IMG/VR virus record: IMGVR_UViG_3300044839_000061
Location: 1-41,079 of that record
DNA length: 41,079 nt
Origin: a virus
Strand: one strand, 5' to 3'
In this document: in pieces, positions 5,493 to 35,000 of the stretch
Position numbering within the stretch: position 1 is the stretch's first letter
How the letters are laid out: every line of letters starts with the position of its first letter
Made by a program: the position numbers and the translations under genes
The notes under the pieces: generated by a model
Database searches by the model: none
The model's input: the letters and a program-made list of their open reading frames with translations, nothing else
Told to the model about the DNA's origin: nothing

Positions 5493-6425
5493 TTGGCTCA
5501 AGCGAAGTCCGGCTATACAAAAGTGGAAAACTACTTTTTCGATCATGTGATGCCGCGTGTCAGTTGCGTGGAATGGAAGACGATCTGCGCCGTCATACGC
5601 GAGACCGTCGGCTGGAACCGCGACGAGGCTGAAATCTCGGTCGAGCGCTTCATGCAGCTCACCGGCTTTGCGCGCCAGGCGATGATGGCCGGCATCACGA
5701 AGTCTCGCCAGCGCGGCTCCATCGCGCGGCGCACAATCCGCGACGGCCGGCAACGCACCTTCAAGTATCGCGCCATCCCGCACGCCAATCTCGCAGCTCT
5801 CCCCGAACCCGCCCCGCGGCGTAAGCAGGACACTCTGCCCTTTGACGTCTTAGCGGTCGCCGGTCATCCCTCGCCGGTTACTTCTGACACTGAGGAAATC
5901 GTGAGTCAGAGCGAAACAAAGTTTGATAATCATACTTTGATATCAAAGTTTGAAAATCAAACTTCGATCGGGCTGACGGAGTATGAAAATCAAACTCCGA
6001 AACTCGTAGTCCTTAGATCTATTAAAGAAAGGGATCTAAGAGAAAGACAAATTAAGAACGCGACCGACAAAACCGGCCGCGAGCAACAAGCTGTGGAAAA
6101 CTACGAAACCACGGAAAAAGACAACGTCTCCCAGCTTTGCCGGTTTTGCTCCTCCCAACACGCCGACCCGCTCACCGCGCCCGCCGTCACGCTCTATTAC
6201 GACCGCTTCAGGCTGATGCTCAGCGAAGGCTTTCGCCACGACGTTTGGCTGACGGTCCAGGACCTCGCGCTGTGGGGCCGCATTCTCGACGGCTGGTGGT
6301 ACACGAACGGGCGCGGCAAGCGGGTCGACAAGAATCCGCTCGGCATCAAGCAGATGTTGAGCGCCTACGAAGAGGAAGTTAGCAAACAACGAGAACGGGG
6401 AGAGGGAGGAGCGGCACGGGCATGA
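5493..6425 (+). CDS. Replication initiation protein, lambda O-like
   Basis: A 310-aa protein. Its N-terminus (SGYTKVENYFFDHVMP, CVEWKTICAVIRETVGWNRD, then RFMQLTGFARQAM) matches the pattern of phage replication protein O winged-helix domains. The middle (about 140-190) is low complexity and coincides with the iteron-like repeats in the DNA. The C-terminal part (YYDRFRLMLSEGFRHDVWLTV) may recruit a helicase; no phage helicase was recognised, so host DnaB may be used. The TTG start at 5493 is supported by GAGAGG about eight bases upstream. It ends in an ATGA overlap with the next gene. Confidence 0.7.
   Translation: MAQAKSGYTKVENYFFDHVMPRVSCVEWKTICAVIRETVGWNRDEAEISVERFMQLTGFARQAMMAGITKSRQRGSIARRTIRDGRQRTFKYRAIPHANLAALPEPAPRRKQDTLPFDVLAVAGHPSPVTSDTEEIVSQSETKFDNHTLISKFENQTSIGLTEYENQTPKLVVLRSIKERDLRERQIKNATDKTGREQQAVENYETTEKDNVSQLCRFCSSQHADPLTAPAVTLYYDRFRLMLSEGFRHDVWLTVQDLALWGRILDGWWYTNGRGKRVDKNPLGIKQMLSAYEEEVSKQRERGEGGAARA
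5920..6060 (+). other. Candidate phage replication origin inside the O-like gene
   Basis: Three 20-base iterons lie at 5920-5939, 5947-5966 and 5980-5999. The second contains the perfect inverted repeat AGTTTGA-AAA-TCAAACT; the others differ at one arm position. A perfect 16-bp palindrome ACTTTGATATCAAAGT (5934-5949) bridges the first two. An AT-rich, purine-rich stretch (6008-6060) follows, containing an inverted pair CTTAGATC/GATCTAAG (6012-6019, 6033-6040). Lambda has the same arrangement: iterons then an AT-rich segment inside gene O. Confidence 0.55.
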
Positions 6426-6727
6426 AAACAGAGAATTGCAGAGACTGCGGCGCCGGGATCGTCTGGGCCACCAACAATCAATCGCAGCGGCGCACCATGC
6501 TCGACGTGCGCCCCTGGCCGCCGGAGTCCGCACACGGCAATACGCATCTCGACACCGCACACAATAGCTGCGTCGAGCTGGAGCCGGAGATTCGAGAGAG
6601 CGCCAAGCAGCGTGGCATTGCGCTCCACACCAATCACTTTGAAACCTGCCCGGCGCGCGAGCGCGTGCCGCGCTATCTGAAAACGTTCGGAGAAGAGGAG
6701 AAGGGAATTTATGAGCACGCAAATTAA
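6422..6727 (+). CDS. Small zinc-binding phage protein
   Basis: A 101-aa protein with NCRDCGAGIVWATN near the N-terminus and a later HFETCPARERVPR. This Cys-x-x-Cys plus His/Cys pattern is common in small phage proteins around replication genes. It begins in an ATGA overlap with the O-like gene, and its end overlaps the start of the ParB-like fusion by 17 bases. Specific function unknown. Confidence 0.6.
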   Translation: MKTENCRDCGAGIVWATNNQSQRRTMLDVRPWPPESAHGNTHLDTAHNSCVELEPEIRESAKQRGIALHTNHFETCPARERVPRYLKTFGEEEKGIYEHAN

Positions 6728-9146
6728 CGGCACCGCAATCCCTGGGATGCCGCCGGAACTAGCCGAGAAGGGCTGGCAGCTATTTTTGACTGACACAGCC
6801 CGCTTTAAGGCCGTCAATACGAAACTCGGCATTGAAGAAGGGTCTGGTCCCTACCCTGCTGCCGATGAAGCGATCGGCGCCGCACGCGACCTGCAGGTAG
6901 AGATTGAAGAAGAAAAAGCAGTGCGCGAGGAGGCCCAGGAGTCTGCGGGCGAAAACGCCGATCGGCTAGAGGCGGAACACGTCGCGGCAGTGGCCCGCAG
7001 TCGGGAAGAGGCTGGCGGTCACGAATGGAGGAAAACTTCTCTGTTCGGTGAAAGAGGAGGTTTCGACAAGTATCGCTGCGAGCTGTGCGGCGCAACCGCG
7101 AAGCGCTACGGTGTGAGCTGGCCGCCGGTCCCCGACGGCAAGTCCGCGTTTGCGTGCCCCAAAGCAGCGAGGTCAGGCAAGTCAGAGGTAACCGAGCCCA
7201 TTCTACCTGTCGACCTAGTAGCGGCCGGATGGACAATCGAGTGGAGCAAATCAAGCGAGGGTGTCGAGTGGCAGCTCTCAAACGAAACGCTGGACCTTGA
7301 AACAGAGTGGCATGAGAAATCTGCGGATGCCTTTGCTCAGGCTCAAGAACTTACCCGCGCGGCTGAAGCCAATCGTGCCGAGAACGGCTCGCTGACACCC
7401 GAAGACATGCTCGTCAGTGGCTGGCACCTGGTGTTTGATAAGGACCCGAACTGTAAGTTGCCCTACACCGCGAAGAGTGATCTCCTCGGATTAGTGACGC
7501 CAACCTATCGCTACGCGCCTGACGCGTTGGCCCGCGCGCGCGAGCTGGAAGCCGAACACGACGCAGCCGCGGAAGCAAAAGCCAATGCCACGATCGAAGA
7601 GGCGAAACAATCAGAGGGCGCCGCTCGAGCCGCGGCGGTGCACAACGCAATCATCGACGCCGAGCGACCAGTGCCGCCGCGCGAGACCCGTCAACCTCGC
7701 CCGACCGTGCTCAAGCTAATCCCGACCGCTTCAATCAATCCGGAAGTGGCGCTCTCGATGCGCGCCGCCGGTCTCGACCTGCTGAAGGTTGCCGAGTACA
7801 AGGAAGCCCGGCTCGACGGCGCGAAGTTTCCCCCAGTCGATGTCTTCCACGATTCCGAGACGGGCGAGAATCATCTCGCCGGCGGCGCGCACCGGCACGC
7901 CTCGGCCGGGCTCGAGATATTCGCAAACGTTCACGACGGCACGAAGCGCGACGCCATCATCTTTGCCGCCACCGAGAACGCGACGCACGGCCTGCCGCGC
8001 ACGAACGAAGACAAGCGCCTGGCGGTCACGGCCCTGCTCACCGACGAGGAGTGGGTCGTCAACGCCGATATGGTCATCGCGAAGCATGCCGGTGTGACGC
8101 AGCCCTTCGTCGGTAGCGTGCGCAGCGACCTGGAACTTAAAAACGTTATAAGTCCCCAACCCCGCCGCCGCGGCACTGACGGCGTGATGCGCGACACGAC
8201 GAAGATTGGCACGCAGCACGAGAAACGAGCAGACGCCGACGCCGCCGGCGAGGCGGACAACCGCCAAACAACGCTCGCCGACATCGGCGTGGACCTGCCG
8301 CCACGTTTCCCGGAAGCGGGGGAAGCGGAAGAGGGGCAAAGGGAAACGGGTCCAGGGGAAGGGGCGCGCGAAGTCACCGTCTGTCGCGTGTGTCAATGCA
8401 CTGACGAATCTCCCTGCGAAGAAGGCTGCTCCTGGGTGCGGCCCGGCGACGACGTGTGTAGCGCCTGTCTCGCAAAGGCGGCCGGTCAGCCGTCAACGGT
8501 CGACGGTCAACCAGGCGCCGAGTTTGGCAGCGAGCCACTCGACATCGTGCAAGTCATGAACCGCCACGCCGGGGTGCTCTATCGCATGCAGCTCGAGGAA
8601 ATGGGCTTCAGTCACGAGGCTATTCTCAAAGCAGTCAGCGAGGGCGCCATCCTGCAACCCGAAACCGGCAAGTTCACCCTTCCGGACCACCAGCCGCAGC
8701 CGAGCGGAGGAGAGCATAGGTCGGAGGACAGAAGTCAGAGGTCGGAAAGCACGGTGAGCACGGCGAGTGGGCCACCGGCAAAACCCAAACAGAAGATCGA
8801 AGAGATCCTGAAGGGGCGGATGCTGACGATCTCGTTTACGTGGATTCCAAAAGTCCCAGGCGCGAGCGTGTCGGTTAAAGCCGGCAAGCCGGAAGACGCC
8901 GAGCGCGGCATGATTCCATCTGACGACATGCCGCGGTTTCCGGAAAGCATCATCGCCATGATTACCCGCCAGCTCAGCGGCGCCAAAGCCCCGCCAGCAG
9001 CGTCGAAGAAACCCGCAGCAGCGCCGAAGAAGAGGCCCTCTGCGGCCCAGGCTGCGCTCAACAAACACAAGGCCCGCAAGGCCGCCGCGAAAAAGAAGCC
9101 GACAAAGAAGCCGGTAAAGAAGGCAGCGAAAGCGAGGAAGCGGTAA
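6711..9146 (+). CDS. Large ParB-like fusion with zinc finger and histone-like tail
   Basis: An 811-aa mosaic. Three degenerate repeats of roughly 60-70 residues fill the first 300 residues (PPELAEKGWQLF, PVDLVAAGWTIE, PEDMLVSGWHLV, each ending in an Ala/Glu-rich helix); a Cys-x-x-Cys segment interrupts the first two. Residues about 325-480 are a ParB/Srx-type domain (FPPVDVF, HLAGGAHRHASA, ENATHGLPRTNEDKR). About 555-590 is a Cys-rich zinc finger. A short beta-rich segment near 695-755 is followed by a Lys/Ala-rich tail like histone H1 or AlgP. ATG 6711 has GAAGGG upstream. It heads the group with ubiquitin-like, E2, JAB and ThiF genes, hence ParB-related as in PRTRC systems. The segment near 700 could be a PRTRC-E-like piece; that is a guess. 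Confidence 0.75.
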   Translation: MSTQINGTAIPGMPPELAEKGWQLFLTDTARFKAVNTKLGIEEGSGPYPAADEAIGAARDLQVEIEEEKAVREEAQESAGENADRLEAEHVAAVARSREEAGGHEWRKTSLFGERGGFDKYRCELCGATAKRYGVSWPPVPDGKSAFACPKAARSGKSEVTEPILPVDLVAAGWTIEWSKSSEGVEWQLSNETLDLETEWHEKSADAFAQAQELTRAAEANRAENGSLTPEDMLVSGWHLVFDKDPNCKLPYTAKSDLLGLVTPTYRYAPDALARARELEAEHDAAAEAKANATIEEAKQSEGAARAAAVHNAIIDAERPVPPRETRQPRPTVLKLIPTASINPEVALSMRAAGLDLLKVAEYKEARLDGAKFPPVDVFHDSETGENHLAGGAHRHASAGLEIFANVHDGTKRDAIIFAATENATHGLPRTNEDKRLAVTALLTDEEWVVNADMVIAKHAGVTQPFVGSVRSDLELKNVISPQPRRRGTDGVMRDTTKIGTQHEKRADADAAGEADNRQTTLADIGVDLPPRFPEAGEAEEGQRETGPGEGAREVTVCRVCQCTDESPCEEGCSWVRPGDDVCSACLAKAAGQPSTVDGQPGAEFGSEPLDIVQVMNRHAGVLYRMQLEEMGFSHEAILKAVSEGAILQPETGKFTLPDHQPQPSGGEHRSEDRSQRSESTVSTASGPPAKPKQKIEEILKGRMLTISFTWIPKVPGASVSVKAGKPEDAERGMIPSDDMPRFPESIIAMITRQLSGAKAPPAASKKPAAAPKKRPSAAQAALNKHKARKAAAKKKPTKKPVKKAAKARKR

Positions 9147-9610
9147 TGGGAGTTATCAAAATCGAAGGCAAGAGCGTCACGCTGGACGACGCCATCATCG
9201 ACGCCGGCATTGCCGCTATCAAAGCCGCGCTGTCAGTCGACTTTCCGGACGTCGAGAATGCCGACATTGAAATCATCGGCTCAAGAGCGCCGGGCGTAGT
9301 GCGGTCGGCGACCGTGGTCAAGCGCGGCACCGGGAAGGGGATGCCCGACCTGGTCGACTTGCGGGGCGTGGCAGGTGGACGCAGGGAAGCGCGAATCGTG
9401 CGAACTCCTTCAGCCGCAATTAAGGCCTTACGTGCAGGGTTGGCCGCGACGAGTGCTGGCGATAACGGGGCGTTGAATATCTGGACGGATGACACAGGCG
9501 CTTATCGCTGCGAGTCAATGAAGTTCATGGTGACCTTGGAATCGAGAGTCTTCAATAAGCAATCGTCGGTTGTGAAGTGGTTCAAGCAATGGTGGGCGAG
9601 AATTCAATGA
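9146..9610 (+). CDS. PRTRC protein C-like (ubiquitin-like) protein
   Basis: A 154-aa protein. The first 65 residues (IKIEGKSVTLDD, AALSVDFPDVENADIEI, VVKRGTGKG) follow the small PRTRC protein C pattern, which ends P-E-L-x-N-A and later R-x-x-G-T-K-G and has been considered ubiquitin-like. After this come DLRGVAGG (Gly-Gly at 77-78) and a C-terminal extension not seen in the short family members as I recall them. The extension has alpha/beta character (NIWTDDTGAYRCESMKF). It starts at the A of the preceding TAATG overlap. Inference: a modifier protein of the cassette, perhaps processed by the JAB peptidase. The family call rests on a short motif. Confidence 0.5.
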   Translation: MGVIKIEGKSVTLDDAIIDAGIAAIKAALSVDFPDVENADIEIIGSRAPGVVRSATVVKRGTGKGMPDLVDLRGVAGGRREARIVRTPSAAIKALRAGLAATSAGDNGALNIWTDDTGAYRCESMKFMVTLESRVFNKQSSVVKWFKQWWARIQ

Positions 9611-9864
9611 ACGCGCAACGTGCGGTGATCGATTCGCTGCTCGCGGCTCCGGAGTATGTCAACCCGGCGATCGCGCTGGCGCTCGAGTGCATGGCAGACG
9701 AGACGCGCGGGGACCAGGAAGGAATCGAACGCGCGATTCGCTCCGGTGCCATGGAGCGCGCCATTGCCGACGGCGAACGCGAGGGCACGGCGGTTATCAA
9801 GTCGCTGCTGTCATGCAGCGAAGCGCCACCGGTGGCCAGCAGGAAAGTGCCGGCCGGATTCTGA
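9607..9864 (+). CDS. Small helical protein in the PRTRC-like cassette
   Basis: An 85-aa, mostly helical protein (MNAQRAVIDSLLAAPEYVN, EGIERAIRSGAMERAI). The ATG at 9607 overlaps the previous stop (ATGA). No family recognised. Its tight coupling suggests that it belongs to the ubiquitin-like cassette or the early operon. Confidence 0.5.
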   Translation: MNAQRAVIDSLLAAPEYVNPAIALALECMADETRGDQEGIERAIRSGAMERAIADGEREGTAVIKSLLSCSEAPPVASRKVPAGF

Positions 9865-9866
9865 AG

Positions 9867-10877
9867 ATGCAGCAATCAGCAAACAGCAATCAGCCAGCTT
9901 TACCGTTCGAGCGCGCGTTGCTCTATCTCGCGTCGCGAGCCCGGGCGCGCACACCGCTCGGCGCCGGCGAGTACCTCGTTTGCCTGCGCCATCACGCGCG
10001 CGAGAATTACGACAAGCGTCTGACCGTCGCCGTCGACTGCCTCTCCATCTATCGCCAGGCGTTTCCCGAACAGTATGCGCGCTCGACGGCGCCGGCCTTC
10101 TCCGTGCAGCGCGAGCATGAGTTTTATAAGCTGGTCCATACGCAGTGTTTTCCCTTAGTGGTCGACGAGCAAACGGACCTGCTCACTTATCTCGAGCGCG
10201 AGCCGCGCTTCTTTCTGCCATTCATTCCGGTGCGCGGGCTGCAGCGTTACGAGTGGCTGCCCGGAGCGTTCGACTACTCGGAAATCGACGTGCCCTATCA
10301 GCTCGCGTTGCTACTGTCAGCGATATTGCCCGACGAAATCGGCAAAACCGAGGGGCCGATTACCGTGGGCGGCCTGACGTTTCCCGCCGACTTCCCGCGC
10401 CCGGCGCTGCCGCTCGGCGGACTCGGCTGGTCGCTCTTCGTGCACGCGCTAAAAACCGAGGACAGTCCGCTCGCCTATCTGCCGGCCGCGTTTGAGCTCA
10501 TCACTTACAAAACCGGAAACACCTGGCTCGACATGCCGCGCCAGGTTAGCTATCTCGGCCACGCCTGGTCGCCGGAGCGCGTGGCCGAGTTAGCCGTGAT
10601 GCGCGCGAAGGCTGACCAGTACGACATCGCCATGCGCAAGCTCCATAACTGGCTGCGAGAGGACCTACCAACGCGTCTGACGCGCGCGGTAACGCTCTGG
10701 AACACCGCGAGCGCGCGGGAAGCTGAGTGGGGCTATGAGGGTCTCACCGGCGACGAGTTCATGGAAGCGGCCGTCGGCCGAGGGCTGGGTGTGCCGATGC
10801 CTAATCAGATGATGGCTTTGCCGCCGGGCGAATTGGACCGCCTATGGGCGGGAAACGAAAGGGAATTATATACTTGA
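9867..10877 (+). CDS. Unknown 336-aa protein in the PRTRC-like cassette
   Basis: Starts MQQSANSNQPALPFERALLYLASRA; the first residues are encoded by a CAGCAATCAGC-type repeat. The body is soluble, mixed alpha/beta and rich in aromatic residues, with no signal peptide or clear catalytic motif. The ATG at 9867 is two bases after the previous stop; the open frame extends upstream but there reads as Arg-rich nonsense. The gene ends inside a 15-bp inverted repeat. Its place between the ubiquitin-like and E2-like genes suggests an accessory or substrate, but nothing in the sequence shows this. Confidence 0.6.
   Translation: MQQSANSNQPALPFERALLYLASRARARTPLGAGEYLVCLRHHARENYDKRLTVAVDCLSIYRQAFPEQYARSTAPAFSVQREHEFYKLVHTQCFPLVVDEQTDLLTYLEREPRFFLPFIPVRGLQRYEWLPGAFDYSEIDVPYQLALLLSAILPDEIGKTEGPITVGGLTFPADFPRPALPLGGLGWSLFVHALKTEDSPLAYLPAAFELITYKTGNTWLDMPRQVSYLGHAWSPERVAELAVMRAKADQYDIAMRKLHNWLREDLPTRLTRAVTLWNTASAREAEWGYEGLTGDEFMEAAVGRGLGVPMPNQMMALPPGELDRLWAGNERELYT
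9869..9895 (+). repeat. CAGCAATCAGC-type degenerate repeat
   Basis: Near-tandem copies of GCAATCAGCAAACA. A related pair, AGCAATCGGCAA twice, lies at 14276-14302 after the VRR-NUC gene. Here it codes for the start of the 336-aa protein. Confidence 0.65.
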
Positions 10878-10910
10878 CTGCCTAAAGTATATAATTCCCA
10901 AACGAAAGGG
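10853..10910 (+). other. Perfect 15-bp inverted repeat flanked by 11-bp direct repeats
   Basis: GGGAATTATATACTT (10861-10875) and its exact complement (10885-10899) are separated by nine bases. AAACGAAAGGG occurs on both sides (10853-10863 and 10900-10910). The stem covers the last codons of the upstream gene. There is no T-run, so it is not a standard terminator. It could be an operator, an RNA processing site or a tiny insertion with target duplication. The second AAACGAAAGGGG also serves as ribosome site for the E2-like gene. Confidence 0.7.
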
Positions 10911-10919
10911 GACAATTGG

Positions 10920-11714
10920 ATGCCTAACGAAGACGTGTTGTCAGAGCTGACGAGATTGATGGCGCACACGACTGCAATTCACGCGGAAGTCGAGAACCCG
11001 CGGCTGGAGTTTCGCGACGGGCAGTTTTTCTTTCGCATGACAAACCTCGAGGGTGGCGTGACGGAGCGTTATGTTTCCGACGCGGCCGTGCGCGAAGCCT
11101 TCTCCAAAATCCCGATCGACAGCGGCTGGCTGCGTCCGGAGATTGCGCGCTGGGGCGACGGCAAGCATGGCGAGTGGGCCGTGGCGTTCTTCCCGCCGGC
11201 AGTGCACGAGTTGGAAGTGAGTTTCGACCTCGAGCCAGAGGACCATGAGCGCGACCGCGAGGCGGGCAGAATGTCGAGTGAGGACAGCCGCAAGCTCCTG
11301 CGACTGAAAGTGCCGCTGCCGGGTCTCGTCTTCTTCGGGATGGGCACTAGCTATTTTGTGTTTGCGGTGAAGACCGAACAGCTCGATCCGTTTCAGGAAA
11401 TCTTTCGCGCGCCGCTGCCGAATGTTTACACCGACGGCAAAGTTTGCTGGGGCCTGGTTAAGCCGCCGCTGCCGAATGCTCGCTCGATCTTCACCGCGTG
11501 GGACCTCTTCATTAGGTCCACTTTCAACAATCACCTGGCCAGTGGGAAGTCGAAGATGCACAGCATTGACGTGCGCGTCATGCTGAGAGTCGCCGCGGGA
11601 ATGATGCCGGTGCCGTTTCCTGTCGACGATCTGGTCCGGCAAGTTGCAAACGTTGGTGTGACTCTCGACAAGGCGCTGCGCGACTTTATGGAAACGGGAG
11701 CAATGGCGGAATGA
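10920..11714 (+). CDS. E2-like protein (Prok-E2_D / PRTRC protein B)
   Basis: A 264-aa protein. The core at about 130-215 (LPGLVFFGMG, YFVFAVK, FRAPLPNVYTDGKVCWGL, then SIFTAWDLFIRSTFNNHLASG) matches the Prok-E2_D/PRTRC-B pattern, in which the Cys of GxVCxG is the proposed ubiquitin-conjugating-type active site; here it is Cys176. In a conjugation pathway E2 takes the modifier from E1. The ATG at 10920 follows GAAAGGGG. Its stop TGA overlaps the ATG of the JAB gene. The presence of ThiF, JAB and ubiquitin-like genes nearby strongly supports the assignment. Confidence 0.8.
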   Translation: MPNEDVLSELTRLMAHTTAIHAEVENPRLEFRDGQFFFRMTNLEGGVTERYVSDAAVREAFSKIPIDSGWLRPEIARWGDGKHGEWAVAFFPPAVHELEVSFDLEPEDHERDREAGRMSSEDSRKLLRLKVPLPGLVFFGMGTSYFVFAVKTEQLDPFQEIFRAPLPNVYTDGKVCWGLVKPPLPNARSIFTAWDLFIRSTFNNHLASGKSKMHSIDVRVMLRVAAGMMPVPFPVDDLVRQVANVGVTLDKALRDFMETGAMAE

Positions 11715-12454
11715 TAGGTCAGAGGTCAGAAGTCAGAGGTCAGATGACAGAGTCCGTCGCCACTACTGTCGGCCGCTTCGTTGAACACCACCTCGCCAAG
11801 CGCGGCGCTCAGCTCCCGCCCGTCGACGAGTCGCTGCTGCTCGATTACGTCATTGGCAACAACGGATTATTCGCGCGCGGCCGGCGCCCAGGACTGGAAG
11901 CTTGCATCCCGATCGCGCACGCGCGCGTGCGCGGCCTCCGCGGTGTCGAGCCTTATGTGCAGTGGGGATATCCGAAAGTGCCGGCGAGTGTGCTCGCTCT
12001 GATATTCCATATCTCCCAGACGATCGCGAAGAAGGAACCGCGCGAGACGCTGTTTCATCTCTCGTTTGGCCCGGCCGCTACTGCAGGCGGAACCGACCAG
12101 ATCCCGTGCACCGGTCACGTGTGTTGCGCGGCGGGCTGGCACCTGGAGTTTCCCAAACAACAGGGGACGGACCAACACGTCGAGGCGCTGGAAAAGGGCG
12201 CGGGCACTTCTGAAGAGCGCGCGGTGATCGAAGTGCACAGCCACCATGAAATGGATCCGGTGTTTAGCGCCACCGACGACGCCGACGAGGGTACGATGAG
12301 CTTCCGGATCTATGGCGTCATCGGGAACATTTTTACCAACCCGTCAATCCGTGTGCGCGTCGGGTTGTTTGGATACTTCTACGAATGCTCGGCAAGCGAG
12401 TTTTTCGAAATGCCGGAGGGCGTGAGTGATTGCTGTGAAAGGAAGTCAGGATAA
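11711..12454 (+). CDS. JAB/JAMM metallopeptidase (PRTRC protein A-like)
   Basis: A protein of 247 aa, or 236 aa if translation starts at the second ATG (11744). It contains HSHHEMDPVFSATD at 176-189, an exact His-x-His-x7-Ser-x2-Asp JAMM motif for zinc and catalysis. JAB enzymes cleave after ubiquitin-like modifiers or mature their precursors. Segments before and after (VIEV; FRIYGVIGN; IRVRVGLFGYF) fit the JAB strands. The first 11 residues (GQRSEVRGQ) come from a GTCAGAGG repeat inserted at the junction with the E2-like gene, so the ancestral start is probably 11744. The general-base Glu upstream is not assigned. Confidence 0.78.
   Translation: MIGQRSEVRGQMTESVATTVGRFVEHHLAKRGAQLPPVDESLLLDYVIGNNGLFARGRRPGLEACIPIAHARVRGLRGVEPYVQWGYPKVPASVLALIFHISQTIAKKEPRETLFHLSFGPAATAGGTDQIPCTGHVCCAAGWHLEFPKQQGTDQHVEALEKGAGTSEERAVIEVHSHHEMDPVFSATDDADEGTMSFRIYGVIGNIFTNPSIRVRVGLFGYFYECSASEFFEMPEGVSDCCERKSG
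11718..11750 (+). repeat. GTCAGAGGTCAGA-type degenerate repeat at a gene junction
   Basis: Four near-copies of GTCAGAGG/GTCAGAAG sit exactly between the E2-like stop and the likely original JAB start, adding an in-frame N-terminal extension to the JAB protein. Confidence 0.85.
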
Positions 12455-12946
12455 ATGACCGAACCATCAGGAACAATTGCGCACGCCGTTGCTATGACGT
12501 CGGACCAGAATAAGTTACCCAGGGAATCTGCCCTGCTGACGCTGGCGTGGATTCACTATTGCGGTGGCGACTACAACCAGCCGCTTGCTCCGGACTTCAT
12601 CGAAAAATTTAGAGCGTCGGTGGATAGCGTTGCCGGCGACTTTGCCGCAGTGCTCAAGGAGACGGGCGCCCTACAAGATGAAGAGCAAATCTCCGTTCCG
12701 CTCGCGGTCAAAAAGGACGACGTTGAGAACTTCGTGATCGAGATCGTTAACCGCCTGGGACTCCACCCCGCGGTTGCGATGCAGTTTCTCGGTGTTATTG
12801 CCTACGCCGATGGAAACCTAAAGAAACAACTACACCTTCCAACTCTCGCTGCCCACATGGGCAAGGAAGCCGCGAGATACGGCTATCAGGTTGACCTTCA
12901 AAAGGTCGAAGACGTTCCACTTAACATCACGGGAGCCGTTCAATGA
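12455..12946 (+). CDS. Unknown 163-aa protein in the PRTRC-like cassette
   Basis: A mostly helical protein (SALLTLAWIHYCGGDYNQP; DDVENFVIEIVNRLGLHPAVAMQFLGVI) placed between JAB and ThiF. It starts directly after the JAB stop (TAAATG) and ends in an ATGA overlap with the ThiF gene, so translation is probably coupled. No family recognised. A role as cassette partner or target is possible but unsupported by sequence. Confidence 0.6.
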   Translation: MTEPSGTIAHAVAMTSDQNKLPRESALLTLAWIHYCGGDYNQPLAPDFIEKFRASVDSVAGDFAAVLKETGALQDEEQISVPLAVKKDDVENFVIEIVNRLGLHPAVAMQFLGVIAYADGNLKKQLHLPTLAAHMGKEAARYGYQVDLQKVEDVPLNITGAVQ

Positions 12947-13896
12947 GCAAACGAAACAAACGGCGTCATTCGCCATTCCAGCCACCGAAACCGAAACCCG
13001 AAATCGGGCCTAACCCGCCGTCGCTGAATCTCGACTTCATGAATGCGGCCACCGTCGTCGTGCCGGACTGGTCGAGCGTGCAATTCATTCTCGCCGGCTG
13101 CGGCGGCATCGGCGGTTACGTCGCGCCACACCTGGGCCGGCTGATGCGCGTCCTCTACGACAACGGCAAGGCCGCGCAGCTGACGCTCGTTGACCCGGAC
13201 ATCGTTGAAGAGAAGAACATCGGGCGCCAGAATTTCTGCGACGCCGAGATTGGCCAGCCGAAAGCGCTTGCCCTCGCGCGCCGCTACGCCCCGGCCTGGG
13301 GACTTAACACCGCCGTCTTCCAGAGCGAGTTTGACGAGAGCCACATGTTTGGCGGCAGCGACCTGATTGTCGTCATCGGCTGCGTCGATAACGCCCGGGC
13401 CCGCGCCACGTTGAACGACACCCTCGGGCACAATCCGGAAGAGCTCAGCATGGGAATGCCGCGGGTCTGGTGGCTCGATTGCGGCAACCTGAAAGACACG
13501 GGCCGGGTAATGCTCGGCTCGGCTTTGACCGTGGACCAGTGCGAGGGCGCCTTCGTCGCGCCCGGCAAAGTAGCCGCGCTGCCGTCGCCGGTGCTGCAGT
13601 ATCCCTCGCTGCTGATACCCGGGCGCGACGAAGTGCAAGACCGCGAGATGTCGTGCGCGGAGCTGCAGGCTGCGAACCTGCAATCGCTCAACATCAATCC
13701 GGCCGTCGCCTGGATGGCCAACAACATGCTCACGCGCTTGCTCGTCACTAACGACCTGAAGGTTTACCAGTCGGTCGCGAACCTGGCTTCCGTAACCGTG
13801 AAGTCTTTCTATTGCACACCGGAAGAGATTGCGCGCGAGCTCGGCCGCTCGGTGGAGTTTGTTACCGGCTACGAACGCACGGAGGCGGCAGCATGA
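12943..13896 (+). CDS. E1-like ThiF-family adenylyltransferase (PRTRC ThiF)
   Basis: A 317-aa protein with a Rossmann-type ATP site at about 49-58 (ILAGCGGIGG), LVDPDIVEEKNIGRQNF (acidic residues and the Asn-x-x-Arg that contact ATP and the modifier tail), and VVIGCVDNARARATL. ThiF/E1 enzymes adenylate the C-terminus of ubiquitin-like proteins. Later segments, WWLDCGNLKDTGRVMLG and LNINPAVAWMANNML, also fit the PRTRC ThiF type as I recall it. The catalytic Cys is not certain; Cys147 and Cys170 are candidates. It ends in an ATGA overlap with the VRR-NUC gene. Confidence 0.85.
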   Translation: MSKRNKRRHSPFQPPKPKPEIGPNPPSLNLDFMNAATVVVPDWSSVQFILAGCGGIGGYVAPHLGRLMRVLYDNGKAAQLTLVDPDIVEEKNIGRQNFCDAEIGQPKALALARRYAPAWGLNTAVFQSEFDESHMFGGSDLIVVIGCVDNARARATLNDTLGHNPEELSMGMPRVWWLDCGNLKDTGRVMLGSALTVDQCEGAFVAPGKVAALPSPVLQYPSLLIPGRDEVQDREMSCAELQAANLQSLNINPAVAWMANNMLTRLLVTNDLKVYQSVANLASVTVKSFYCTPEEIARELGRSVEFVTGYERTEAAA

Positions 13897-31964: not shown

Positions 31965-32155
31965 GCCATCGCCTGTTGATTGAGTGGTACCGGAGCGGTG
32001 GCAAAACCGGAAGGGCTTTGGAAGGGCAGGAGCTGATCGAGCTCGCGTTCGTACTCGGCCGCATGCCCGACGAGATCGAGCAGAGCGACGAGGTTTGGGT
32101 GAATAAGATGCTCGCCGCGCTGAGCGCGCGTATTGCGGCAAGCCAAAAGCGCTAA
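31605..32155 (+). CDS. Frameshifted tail assembly chaperone, gpGT-like
   Basis: Joining 31605-31958 to 31958-32155 by a -1 shift gives 183 aa. The T-like extension begins PKQLSHRLLIEWYRSGGKTG and continues GQELIELAFVLGRMPDEIEQ and VWVNKMLAALSARIAASQKR. It has no credible start codon of its own in the right place, yet its residue pattern is protein-like and it fills the gap before the tape measure gene. In lambda and many siphophages G and GT are made in a fixed ratio and fold the tape measure protein. Confidence 0.65.
31952..31958 (+). promoter_or_regulatory. Programmed -1 frameshift site CCCAAAC
   Basis: The heptamer fits X-XXY-YYZ in the correct register (zero-frame codons CCA at 31953 and AAC at 31956). 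The zero frame stops two codons later (31962-31964). After slipping, CCC-AAA-CAG continues an open frame to 32155. Confidence 0.65.
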
Positions 32156-32180
32156 TCGCGCCCGCTCAATTTCCATTCAA

Positions 32181-35000
32181 ATGGCCAGGACTATAGAAGC
32201 CTACAAGCTGAGGACGGAGCTCGCGGTTGACGCCGCGAAGGGCCGCCGTGAGACGCAGGCGTTTGAGAAAGACGTCGGCAAGGTCGAGAGTCGCTTCAAG
32301 TCCCTGGGTAAAGAGATCACCTCGGCGATGAAGGGCGCCGACGTTTCCGCCGGGCGCAAGTGGGGCGAGAACTTCAGCTCTGGCGCCACCTCTGTCATCA
32401 CCGGCAGCATCAAGAGCCTCGGCACTACCATCGGCTCGATCATCGGCACCGCCATCGCGCCCGGCATCGGCACCGCCATCGGTTCGACGGTGGGCTCGGC
32501 CGTTGACGCGGCGCTCGAAAAAGTCTCCGGACCAATCCTCGAAAAAATCAAGGGCGGCATCGAGCTCAATAAGCTGCTCGAGCAGACGCAGATCGAGTTC
32601 ACCACCTTTGCCGGCAGCGAGAGGGAGGCCAAGAGATACCTATCGGACCTCCTGAAGATGTCGACCGATCTAGGGATTCTCCCCACCGTCCTGATTGACG
32701 CCTCCGAAAAGACCTACGACCTCACTAACAATCTAAAACTGACGCGCACCATTCTCAGGGCGGCGGCCGACCAGGCGGCGGACTTTGGCGGCAAGGTTGA
32801 AACGTTCCAGGATATCGCTACGCAGCTCGGCTTGATTGCTGAAAAGGGCGAGATGGCGAGCCGGGAGCTGAACAAGCTCTACAAGTTGGGAATTGATGCC
32901 CCCAAACTTTTAGCTCAAGCAACAGGCAAGAGCGAGGAGACTATAAAGAAGTGGATCTCTAAGGGGGAAATTGATGGAGCCGTAGCGGCCAGGTTGATTG
33001 CCGAAGGAATTGAGCGGCAGAAGGCGGGGTACGCGCGAAAGCAGGCCATGACGTCGACCATCGGCGCCGAGCGACGTAGTGAGGCCCTCACGCAGGTGCG
33101 TGCCGCGGAAGGCACGCAAAACGCGACGCACGCTCTCGGTGATTTCTATCGCAACTTCAACGATGTGATGGATAGTCCGCAGGCGAAGAGGTTCGTTAGC
33201 TTTATCGACGAGAAGACCGGCTCGCTAATCAACATGGTCGAGAAGGCGTCGCGCGCCGGCGTCAACGTCGCCGAGGGCCTCGGCGTCGGCATCACCAGCG
33301 GCGAGGCGCTCAAGAGTCTCGGCGCTTCCTTTACCTCACTGGGCGACTATACGGAGACAACGCTCAAGGGAGTGTTCGGCATAAAGTCGCCTTCCCAGCG
33401 AATGATCGACGCGGTGGGAATACCGCTGGGCGAGGGCATCGGCGTCGGCACCAAGCAGGGGATGATGGCCTATGCCGACCTGCACGCCCACGATGACGTC
33501 GAAGACTTTATCCGCGCCTACTCTGAGGCGGCGCGCGAGGCCCAGAGAAAAACCGGCGTGCCGGCCTCGGTCTCGATGGCCCAGGCTATCCTCGAATCTG
33601 GCGCCGGCAAGTCGGGACTGACCAGAAGGGCTAAGAACTTCTTCGGCATCAAAGGCAAAGGCTCGGCGGGCTCGGTGAACATGCGCACGCGCGAAGAGAC
33701 CCGCTCCGGAAGCAGCTACTATGTCAACGCTCCATTCCGTGCATACAACTCCGCCGACGAATCGTTTCTCGACCACGGCGAATTCCTGCGCGGCCCACGC
33801 TATCGCGGCGCCCTGCAGTTCGCGGGCGACCCGAAGGCTTACGCTCAAAAGATAGCCTCAGCCGGCTACGCTACCGACAGGAATTACGCGGGCAAGGTTG
33901 GCGGGCTGATTGATAAGTACGGCCTCAGTCGGCTTGACGTGGGCGGTGCGGCCGTCAGCGCCTCAAATCCGATGCCGGTCTACGTCGCGCATGACATCGT
34001 GGGCGGCGCCTCGCTCATCTTCGGTAAGGGCCGGAAACAGCAGCCGACATCGTTCAGCACCTCGGTATCGTTTGACGAGAACTCGATTCGAGTTGATCCG
34101 GTCGCCCAGATGTTGGACTTGGCTGGGAAAGCCGTCCCTGTATTTGAAGGCTTGGCGCCTGCAATCGCGAACGCCAGCGGTCCGCTGCTTACCTTTGACC
34201 AGGCGATGCACATTGCCTCCGGAACGCTCAGCGACTTTGGCCTCGGAATGCCGCTCCTAACCAAAGAGATGCTCGATTTTGGAAGGGAGACGCGAACGGA
34301 TCTAGCACTTACGACGAACCTCTTAGAGCAAAACGTCACCACGCTTCATCGCACGGTTGGCATTGCCACGCAGCTTTCCGTGGCCGTGGGCCAAGCAGGG
34401 ACCATGTTGCCGCAGCAAAAGGTGGGAAAGAAGCGCGGGCTGTTCTCGCAAATCCTGGGCTTCGCGGCGCCGTTTCTCTCGTTTATTCCCGGCGCGGGCC
34501 CAATGCTCTCGCACCTTGCGGGGATGGCCAGCGCCGGGCTCGCCGGCAACTGGGCGGGCGTCGCTTCCGGGGTTGCCGCAGGCCTGCAGCCGGGCGGCGT
34601 CTTTCACGGCAGCGGGTCGAGTCCCGGCGGAGGGGGCGGCGCGGGCACGACTATCGGATCGGGCGTCGGCACTAGTGGCCATGGCGGACTCGTACACCGC
34701 GCGGCTGGTGGGCCAGGCTTTCGCGGCCGCACCTACTGGACCGGTGAGCACGGTCCGGAACCATTCATGGCGCCGAGCAATGGCTATTTCCTTAACCACC
34801 GCGACGCGATGTCGGCAATTGGCGGCGGCGGAGATCCGGCAATGGCGGGAATGCTCGAGCGGCTGCATGGCGTGCTGGCGCGACTTGAAGGCGTGGACCC
34901 GACTCACGTCGTGCGCATGGGCGCGCGCGGAATGATTGACGCTTACGACCAGGATGCGGGGTTGATTCGCATGAGCTCGCAGCGCCATCGGCTTGAGTAA
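32181..35000 (+). CDS. Tape measure protein with a glucosaminidase domain
   Basis: A 939-aa protein setting tail length. N-terminal coiled coil (RRETQAFEKDVGKVESRFKS), a hydrophobic Gly/Ile-rich segment (about 75-115, possible membrane-insertion helices), a tape-measure core (LLEQTQIEFTTFAGS, KTYDLTNNLKLT, TQLGLIAEKGEMASRELNKL), then a FlgJ/GH73-like glucosaminidase domain at about 440-600 (GVPASVSMAQAILESGAGKSG with the probable catalytic Glu near 470, RAKNFFGIKG, FRAYNSADESFLDHGEFL). The C-terminal part has a Gly-rich stretch and HGGLVHRAAGGPGF, WTGEHGPEPFM. The hydrolase domain would help DNA entry through the cell wall. ATG 32181. Confidence 0.85.
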   Translation: MARTIEAYKLRTELAVDAAKGRRETQAFEKDVGKVESRFKSLGKEITSAMKGADVSAGRKWGENFSSGATSVITGSIKSLGTTIGSIIGTAIAPGIGTAIGSTVGSAVDAALEKVSGPILEKIKGGIELNKLLEQTQIEFTTFAGSEREAKRYLSDLLKMSTDLGILPTVLIDASEKTYDLTNNLKLTRTILRAAADQAADFGGKVETFQDIATQLGLIAEKGEMASRELNKLYKLGIDAPKLLAQATGKSEETIKKWISKGEIDGAVAARLIAEGIERQKAGYARKQAMTSTIGAERRSEALTQVRAAEGTQNATHALGDFYRNFNDVMDSPQAKRFVSFIDEKTGSLINMVEKASRAGVNVAEGLGVGITSGEALKSLGASFTSLGDYTETTLKGVFGIKSPSQRMIDAVGIPLGEGIGVGTKQGMMAYADLHAHDDVEDFIRAYSEAAREAQRKTGVPASVSMAQAILESGAGKSGLTRRAKNFFGIKGKGSAGSVNMRTREETRSGSSYYVNAPFRAYNSADESFLDHGEFLRGPRYRGALQFAGDPKAYAQKIASAGYATDRNYAGKVGGLIDKYGLSRLDVGGAAVSASNPMPVYVAHDIVGGASLIFGKGRKQQPTSFSTSVSFDENSIRVDPVAQMLDLAGKAVPVFEGLAPAIANASGPLLTFDQAMHIASGTLSDFGLGMPLLTKEMLDFGRETRTDLALTTNLLEQNVTTLHRTVGIATQLSVAVGQAGTMLPQQKVGKKRGLFSQILGFAAPFLSFIPGAGPMLSHLAGMASAGLAGNWAGVASGVAAGLQPGGVFHGSGSSPGGGGGAGTTIGSGVGTSGHGGLVHRAAGGPGFRGRTYWTGEHGPEPFMAPSNGYFLNHRDAMSAIGGGGDPAMAGMLERLHGVLARLEGVDPTHVVRMGARGMIDAYDQDAGLIRMSSQRHRLE

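Follow-up and report, generated by a model that had tools for sequence, protein, structure and literature searches.

Why should a bacterial virus carry the machinery for ubiquitin-like modification of proteins? Bacterial ubiquitin-like tagging is known mainly as an anti-phage weapon, and the question is raised by an operon in the IMG/VR virus record IMGVR_UViG_3300044839_000061, which was analysed over its whole length of 41,079 bases and is referred to here as the window (IMG/VR virus records are possibly incomplete). The operon occupies positions 6711–13896 of the plus strand and consists of eight genes that overlap by 1–4 bp or are separated by gaps of at most 42 bp. In order, these code for a ParB-like protein, a ubiquitin-like protein (UBL), a small helical protein (HEL), a larger alpha-helical protein (F), an E2-like conjugating enzyme, a JAB/JAMM metallopeptidase, an accessory protein and an E1-like adenylating enzyme. 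Together they probably constitute a complete phage-encoded ubiquitin-like conjugation pathway, judging by homology and residue conservation. A full E1-E2-UBL-JAB set would then be borne by phages themselves, as a conserved operon of uncultured bacterial viruses, and the open-access literature searched yielded neither a paper on phage-borne complete UBL cascades nor a dedicated functional study of the operon family.

The UBL and the conjugation enzymes

The mature part of the UBL (9146–9340, 65 amino acids, ending in ...VVKRGTGKG) is recognized through its relatives. It matches UBLs of cyanobacterial plasmids (blastp, 2e-4), and against a profile free of phage sequences it scores 21.7 bits and surpasses all 500 shuffled versions, none of which exceeds 6.8 bits. 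The UBL family aligns with the annotated PRTRC_C family in register up to the terminal Gly (hhalign 93.3%, 2.7e-7; all hhalign values reported here are one-against-one comparisons), and for the homolog in phage L009 the predicted order of strands and helices is beta-beta-alpha-beta-beta. The Lys-Gly end is invariant across 17 aligned UBLs, an alignment that L013, considered below, stands outside. The UBL call of the first-pass annotation of this DNA, which had been made from the sequence alone, is therefore upheld by sequence profiles and family evidence, not by a significant fold match.

The three enzymes are more readily identified. The E2-like protein (10920–11714) matches Pfam Prok-E2_D (PF14460) with an E-value of 5e-22 and 78.8 bits, well above the gathering cutoff of 25, and the family is related to PRTRC_B (hhalign 98.5%); its catalytic Cys176 and the downstream His205 are invariant in an alignment of six sequences. 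The JAB protein (11711–12454) retains the exact JAMM motif HSHHEMDPVFSATD, with Glu112, H176-x-H178, Ser186 and Asp189 all in place. It matches Pfam Prok-JAB slightly under the cutoff (2.4e-5) and the PRTRC_A model likewise under the cutoff (1.2e-10), while the family comparison with PRTRC_A reaches 98.8% in hhalign, and its N-terminal extension contains an Arg59 and a Trp143 that are invariant in five sequences. Finally, the E1-like protein (12943–13896) has the ThiF fold, as judged by its matches to Pfam ThiF (PF00899, 6.5e-12) and NCBIfam PRTRC_ThiF (3.6e-38; 131.3 bits, under the cutoff of 144.75) and by profile matches to ThiF/E1 entries of the PDB. Its 317 residues comprise a ThiF domain only, with a GCGGIGG nucleotide loop and a Ser237-Cys238 pair invariant in the alignment. 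All three enzymes thus bear out what the first-pass annotation had read from the sequence, namely an E2, a JAB protein with an intact JAMM motif and an E1/ThiF protein; the lack of matching profiles or folds that would have spoken against that annotation did not arise for the E2 or the JAB protein.

A set of this kind could in principle serve a sulfur carrier akin to ThiS or MoaD, in which case the E1 and the JAB protein would convert the UBL to a thiocarboxylate for biosynthesis and the E2 homolog would be no ligase. The E1 does belong to the ThiF/MoeB family, and JAB-processed UBLs have been proposed for siderophore clusters (PMC1779556). The invariance of the E2 Cys argues against such a carrier, however, and no rhodanese gene is present in the neighbourhoods examined, which makes the sulfur-carrier explanation very unlikely.

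Coupling between JAB and the UBL tail

In the window, the UBL gene continues past the Lys-Gly end for another 89 residues (9341–9607), which are predicted to be removed after Gly65. This is the usual arrangement, as the UBL is mostly encoded as a precursor that bears a variable extension at its C-terminus, or elsewhere with HEL fused in its place. The UBL cores of the window and of phage L001 are identical in 64 of 65 residues, whereas the residues past GTGKG are wholly unrelated; at the DNA level the two phages are homologous up to window position 9339 and again from 9607, where HEL begins with its start codon. The two tails show no relation to each other or to anything else searched, a circumstance that might suggest an annotation or assembly artefact, for instance a frameshift where the UBL gene meets the small gene that follows. 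Yet the majority of the 18 viral records that carry the operon have such extensions, as do many plasmids, and a clean in-frame fusion to HEL is a frequent form. In the window and in L001 alike, the end of the tail overlaps HEL at an ATGA, and tails are absent where JAB is absent, so that an artefact is highly improbable.

The relation between tail and JAB was tabulated for a dereplicated set of complete operons, with any residue beyond the Gly counted as a tail. Tailed UBLs accompany JAB in 32 operons and occur in none of those without it, while mature UBLs are encoded in 14 JAB-less operons and in five that have JAB. A naive Fisher test gives p = 1.8e-8 for the first 51 rows, but the rows are related to one another; among eight tree-independent JAB contrasts approximately six agree with the association and none oppose it (p ~0.03, range 0.031–0.0625). 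The relation is a one-way rule: a tailed UBL in a complete operon is always found with JAB, and in JAB-less operons the UBL stops at the Gly, with the exception of L013. After the rule had been stated, all eight newly fetched viral operons conformed to it: in seven, a tailed or fused UBL is accompanied by an intact JAMM protein, and in L070 both tail and JAB are lacking. The Planktothrix operon offers an experiment of nature. Relative to the Oscillatoria operon, which has a very similar E1, its JAB gene is internally deleted, so that only the opening codons and a remnant of the C-terminus are left (L003:5645-5779), and the UBL end has changed from GGA-GTA-AAA-TAA to GGA-TGA, with the stop right after the Gly. 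In Xanthomonas, PRTRC_C proteins have a tail of approximately 60 residues past the UBL Gly (L047:3261-3656, L063:2726-3124), and JAB (PRTRC_A) is present.

Since tails are found only with JAB, JAB-less UBLs end at the Gly and the Planktothrix case combines both losses, the JAB protein is most likely the protease that matures the UBL. A precedent exists in BilC, a JAMM protease that matures BilA (PMC11354881). The coupling thus points to a biochemical role for JAB in this operon family and provides directly testable cleavage sites.

Several observations weigh against a complete pathway or against this role of JAB. At the level of single sequences, the window UBL has no direct Pfam or NCBIfam match, its model finds no significant PDB match in Foldseek (the model itself being modest, with a pLDDT of 79 and a pTM of 0.41 for UBL-HEL), and a sequence search retrieved no PDB relative of the E2. 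The UBL of the JAB-less phage L013 (5848-6057) ends in ...AATTKH and not in Lys-Gly, with His in place of the Gly; because the terminal Gly is replaced, it is possibly inactive, or else a re-purposed modifier. Five JAB-containing operons encode a mature UBL, and JAB would therefore have another role there. A strict two-way correlation between JAB and tail was rejected once PRTRC plasmids had been added to the comparison, since JAB occurs with a mature UBL in Robbsia, Cupriavidus, Sphingomonas, Rhizorhabdus and Pseudanabaena. Lastly, an operon on a Chroococcidiopsis plasmid (L058, 3638-5681) contains a UBL-HEL fusion, F and E2 with no JAB or E1 within 5 kb, and was excluded from the counts of complete operons. 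AbiEi/AbiEii genes follow that operon.

HEL, F and the ParB-like protein

Three genes, those starting at 9607, 9867 and 12455, had been left as unrecognised in the first-pass annotation. This no longer applies to the first two, which are conserved operon members in phages and on cyanobacterial plasmids, while the third, an accessory gene, fills a slot whose content varies. HEL (9607–9864, 85 residues) contains the motif NPAI, ends in P-x-GF and belongs to a family whose hidden Markov model spans phage and cyanobacterial operons, with a score of 35.7 bits against at most 8.9 for shuffled sequences. It is encoded either as its own gene after the UBL or fused behind it, as in phages L009, L011, L012, L014, L071 and L075–L078 and in Nostoc and others. 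This recurrent fusion in many lineages suggests that HEL is a probable physical partner of the UBL, and the tail coupling likewise marks it as a conserved one; a fold search with the UBL-HEL model returned nothing significant. Synteny with PRTRC operons had suggested the alternative that HEL itself is the UBL, which was dismissed, as HEL matches the helical protein fused behind the Nostoc UBL.

Homologs of F (9867–10877, 336 residues), which is located upstream of E2, are present in the operons examined from phages and cyanobacteria, and its AlphaFold model is mostly helical (pLDDT 81, pTM 0.75) with no significant PDB match in a fold search. The accessory gene between JAB and E1 (12455–12946) is not conserved, and unrelated genes occupy the same slot in L001 and L017. 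Searches of PHROG and PADLOC gave no identification for F, HEL, the tails or this gene.

The ParB-like protein (6711–9146, 811 residues) consists of a variable N-terminus, a domain of the ParB N-terminal type at approximately residues 316–505, a conserved C-terminal domain at approximately residues 694–770 and a Lys-rich tail. The initial ParB-like call agrees with the match of the family profile to PDB ParB (E-value 0.006) and with that of the sister protein in L012 to PHROG 1033, 'ParB-like partition protein' (1.8e-11). The comparison with PRTRC ParB (hhalign 85.7%, 5.4e-6) covers the ParB N-domain only, and the overall architecture differs. The C-terminal domain aligns across the phages with a cyanobacterial upstream gene; its equation with PRTRC_E was discarded, as the resemblance is by eye only and the profile comparison gave no match.

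Genomic context, distribution and selection

The first-pass annotation had described a single rightward, overlapping gene set between phage replication and packaging genes, and all eight open reading frames indeed lie on one strand at the coordinates given here, flanked by a replication-initiation O-like gene and a terminase. The O-like gene (5493–6425, plus strand), directly upstream, matches PHROG 678 (2.5e-10) and TIGR01610 (3e-8) and its product has 61% amino acid identity to that of phage L001. The window further contains an integrase, a portal, a major head protein and tail genes, and at 32133–35000 a 955-residue protein that has an endolysin-like domain in addition to a tape-measure-like match.

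Searches of viral contigs located the operon in 17 other IMG/VR records, 18 in total with the window, and the JAMM motif is intact in the JABs found among the viral operons. Ten of the 18 records form one E1 clade (support 100/99). Six records, including L070/G010, represent the phage type of the window; a GpA-type terminase is common to all six, and portal and integrase matches are found in five of them, the window included. The remaining records have other terminases or none recognised. One record, 3300025324_000020, is seemingly circularly permuted, with JAB divided between its ends (L009 end, L066 start). The nearest non-phage relatives of the E2 are found on cyanobacterial plasmids and in Chloroflexota, and at tblastn sensitivity no E2 was found in named phages. 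Large Salmonella, Vibrio and Bacillus phages (OQ632216.1, OZ195729.1, OM634661.1) have ThiF-like proteins and lack the E2 of the operon.

In the phage group of the window, the packaging and head genes follow the operon closely, a position that would fit a modification of the virion, with the UBL joined to structural proteins so as to regulate assembly or evade host recognition. Homologous operons are however present on conjugative plasmids, which have no virions, and in other viral records (G006) the operon is distant from the terminase; virion modification is accordingly quite unlikely.

Purifying selection acts on the operon proteins and is most stringent in the UBL core. Between the window and L001, the ratio of non-synonymous to synonymous substitution rates (Nei-Gojobori) is 0.011 for the UBL core, 0.06 for HEL, 0.11 for E1, 0.14 for F, 0.22 for JAB and 0.24 for E2, compared with 0.26 for TerL, 0.28 for the O-like protein and 0.31 for the ParB-like protein.

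Proposed mechanism and targets

Homology and the conservation of residues suggest a working scheme. The UBL would be translated as a precursor, and JAB would cleave past the terminal Gly of ...GTGKG, discarding the tail or freeing a fused HEL. E1 would adenylate the exposed Gly and then hold the UBL as a thioester, probably at Cys238, before its transfer to Cys176 of E2, where His205 probably assists catalysis. The UBL would finally be joined to a target protein. JAB may additionally reverse the modification, and HEL may act as a UBL-binding adaptor or as the first substrate.

The most likely targets would be DNA replication or maintenance proteins of the element itself, such as the ParB-like protein or its partners, although this assignment is a guess from gene neighbourhoods and to that extent counts against the proposed scheme. 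The phages encode the ParB-like and O-like proteins, and dnaN, SSB, holA or primase genes adjoin plasmid relatives of the operon (dnaN, SSB or holA in L047, L050, L052, L054 and L056), which suggests a link to DNA replication or maintenance. The neighbourhoods of the relatives appear to favour such a link at least as much as a tagging of host-defence or virion proteins.

The tagging of host proteins, or those of rival phages, would amount to counter-defence or superinfection exclusion, with the phage UBL acting in the reverse direction of Bil and type II CBASS. Related enzymes do serve in anti-phage defence (PMC10097602; PMC11354881), the E1 weakly matches the PADLOC E1-E2 and BilD models, and CBASS or Shedu genes adjoin some plasmid relatives. 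The matches to defence models are confined to the E1 fold, however, the operon is bounded by replication and packaging genes and is not part of a variable accessory region, and its core proteins are conserved no less than TerL, so counter-defence is considered rather unlikely. Beside the Oscillatoria operon stand genes for a DncV-like nucleotidyltransferase and a SAVED protein (L007:7379-10576), and Shedu adjoins the plasmid operon of Pseudomonas (L006:6549-8087).

Carried further, the preferred assignment to replication and maintenance leads to a tentative and still doubtful model, in which temperate phages and related plasmids would control their own replication or maintenance by self-encoded UBL modification, with an exchangeable precursor tail, JAMM-dependent maturation and, in many lineages, release of HEL. 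The UBL-HEL precursor would then be analogous to the eukaryotic fusions of ubiquitin with ribosomal proteins.

Comparison with known systems

The first-pass annotation had termed the cassette PRTRC-like. The resemblance to the PRTRC operons of proteobacterial and Deinococcus plasmids is fair: the gene order there, ParB-(E)-C-F-B-A-ThiF, is the same, and by profile the E2 and JAB families are related, as the UBL family appears to be. Strict membership is nevertheless ruled out. The A, B and ThiF models match under their cutoffs (41.3 against 101.8 bits for A, 53.3 against 131.45 for B, and ThiF as given above), and the E and F models have no match (hhalign 0.1% and 0.0%). In two trees, a branch with 100/100 support also sets the E1 apart from annotated PRTRC ThiF and places it with the cyanobacterial plasmid operons, within the cyanobacterial, Chloroflexota and viral half. 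For PRTRC_C the outcome is mixed, with no direct match to the window UBL and 0.098 in one of 22 family rows, beside the family alignment given above. HEL was undetected in PRTRC operons, and the PRTRC UBL is mostly encoded mature, Xanthomonas excepted.

A closer likeness is seen in cyanobacterial plasmid operons of Nostoc, Planktothrix, Oscillatoria and Kamptonema, which share the order UBL-HEL-F-E2-JAB-E1 and Prok-E2 family D with the window, at amino acid identities of 41–43% for E1 and 36–37% for E2; in Nostoc, HEL is fused to the UBL as in phage L009. In contrast to the phage operon, they reside on plasmids beside conjugation genes, their tails are short (VK) or fused, and in those examined the large ParB-like protein is not directly upstream.

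A further counterpart is operon type 6d of Iyer et al. 2006, which the part of that paper devoted to it describes as having a UBL with a C-terminal Gly, an E1 without rhodanese, a rapidly diverging alpha-helical protein, an E2 with a His downstream of the Cys, and a JAB with an N-terminal alpha+beta domain and conserved Arg and Trp (PMC1779556). Every feature compared with that part of the account has its counterpart in the window, namely the Lys-Gly end of the UBL, C176/H205 of E2, R59/W143 of JAB, the ThiF-only E1 and the helical F, and on these sequence features the operon is a phage branch of the wider UBL-E1-E2-JAB operon type described in 2006. The same part of the account differs in having no phages, HEL gene or coupling of tail and JAB (PMC1779556).

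Finally, BilABCD and the Cap2/Cap3 proteins of type II CBASS likewise conjugate a UBL or cGAS by means of E1, E2 and a JAMM protease. The PADLOC models of the Bil and Cap UBL, E2 and JAB gave no match, the Rossmann region of E1 alone matching, and the phage operon differs from both systems in its single-domain E1 separate from the E2, its one UBL domain and the lack of a nucleotidyltransferase.

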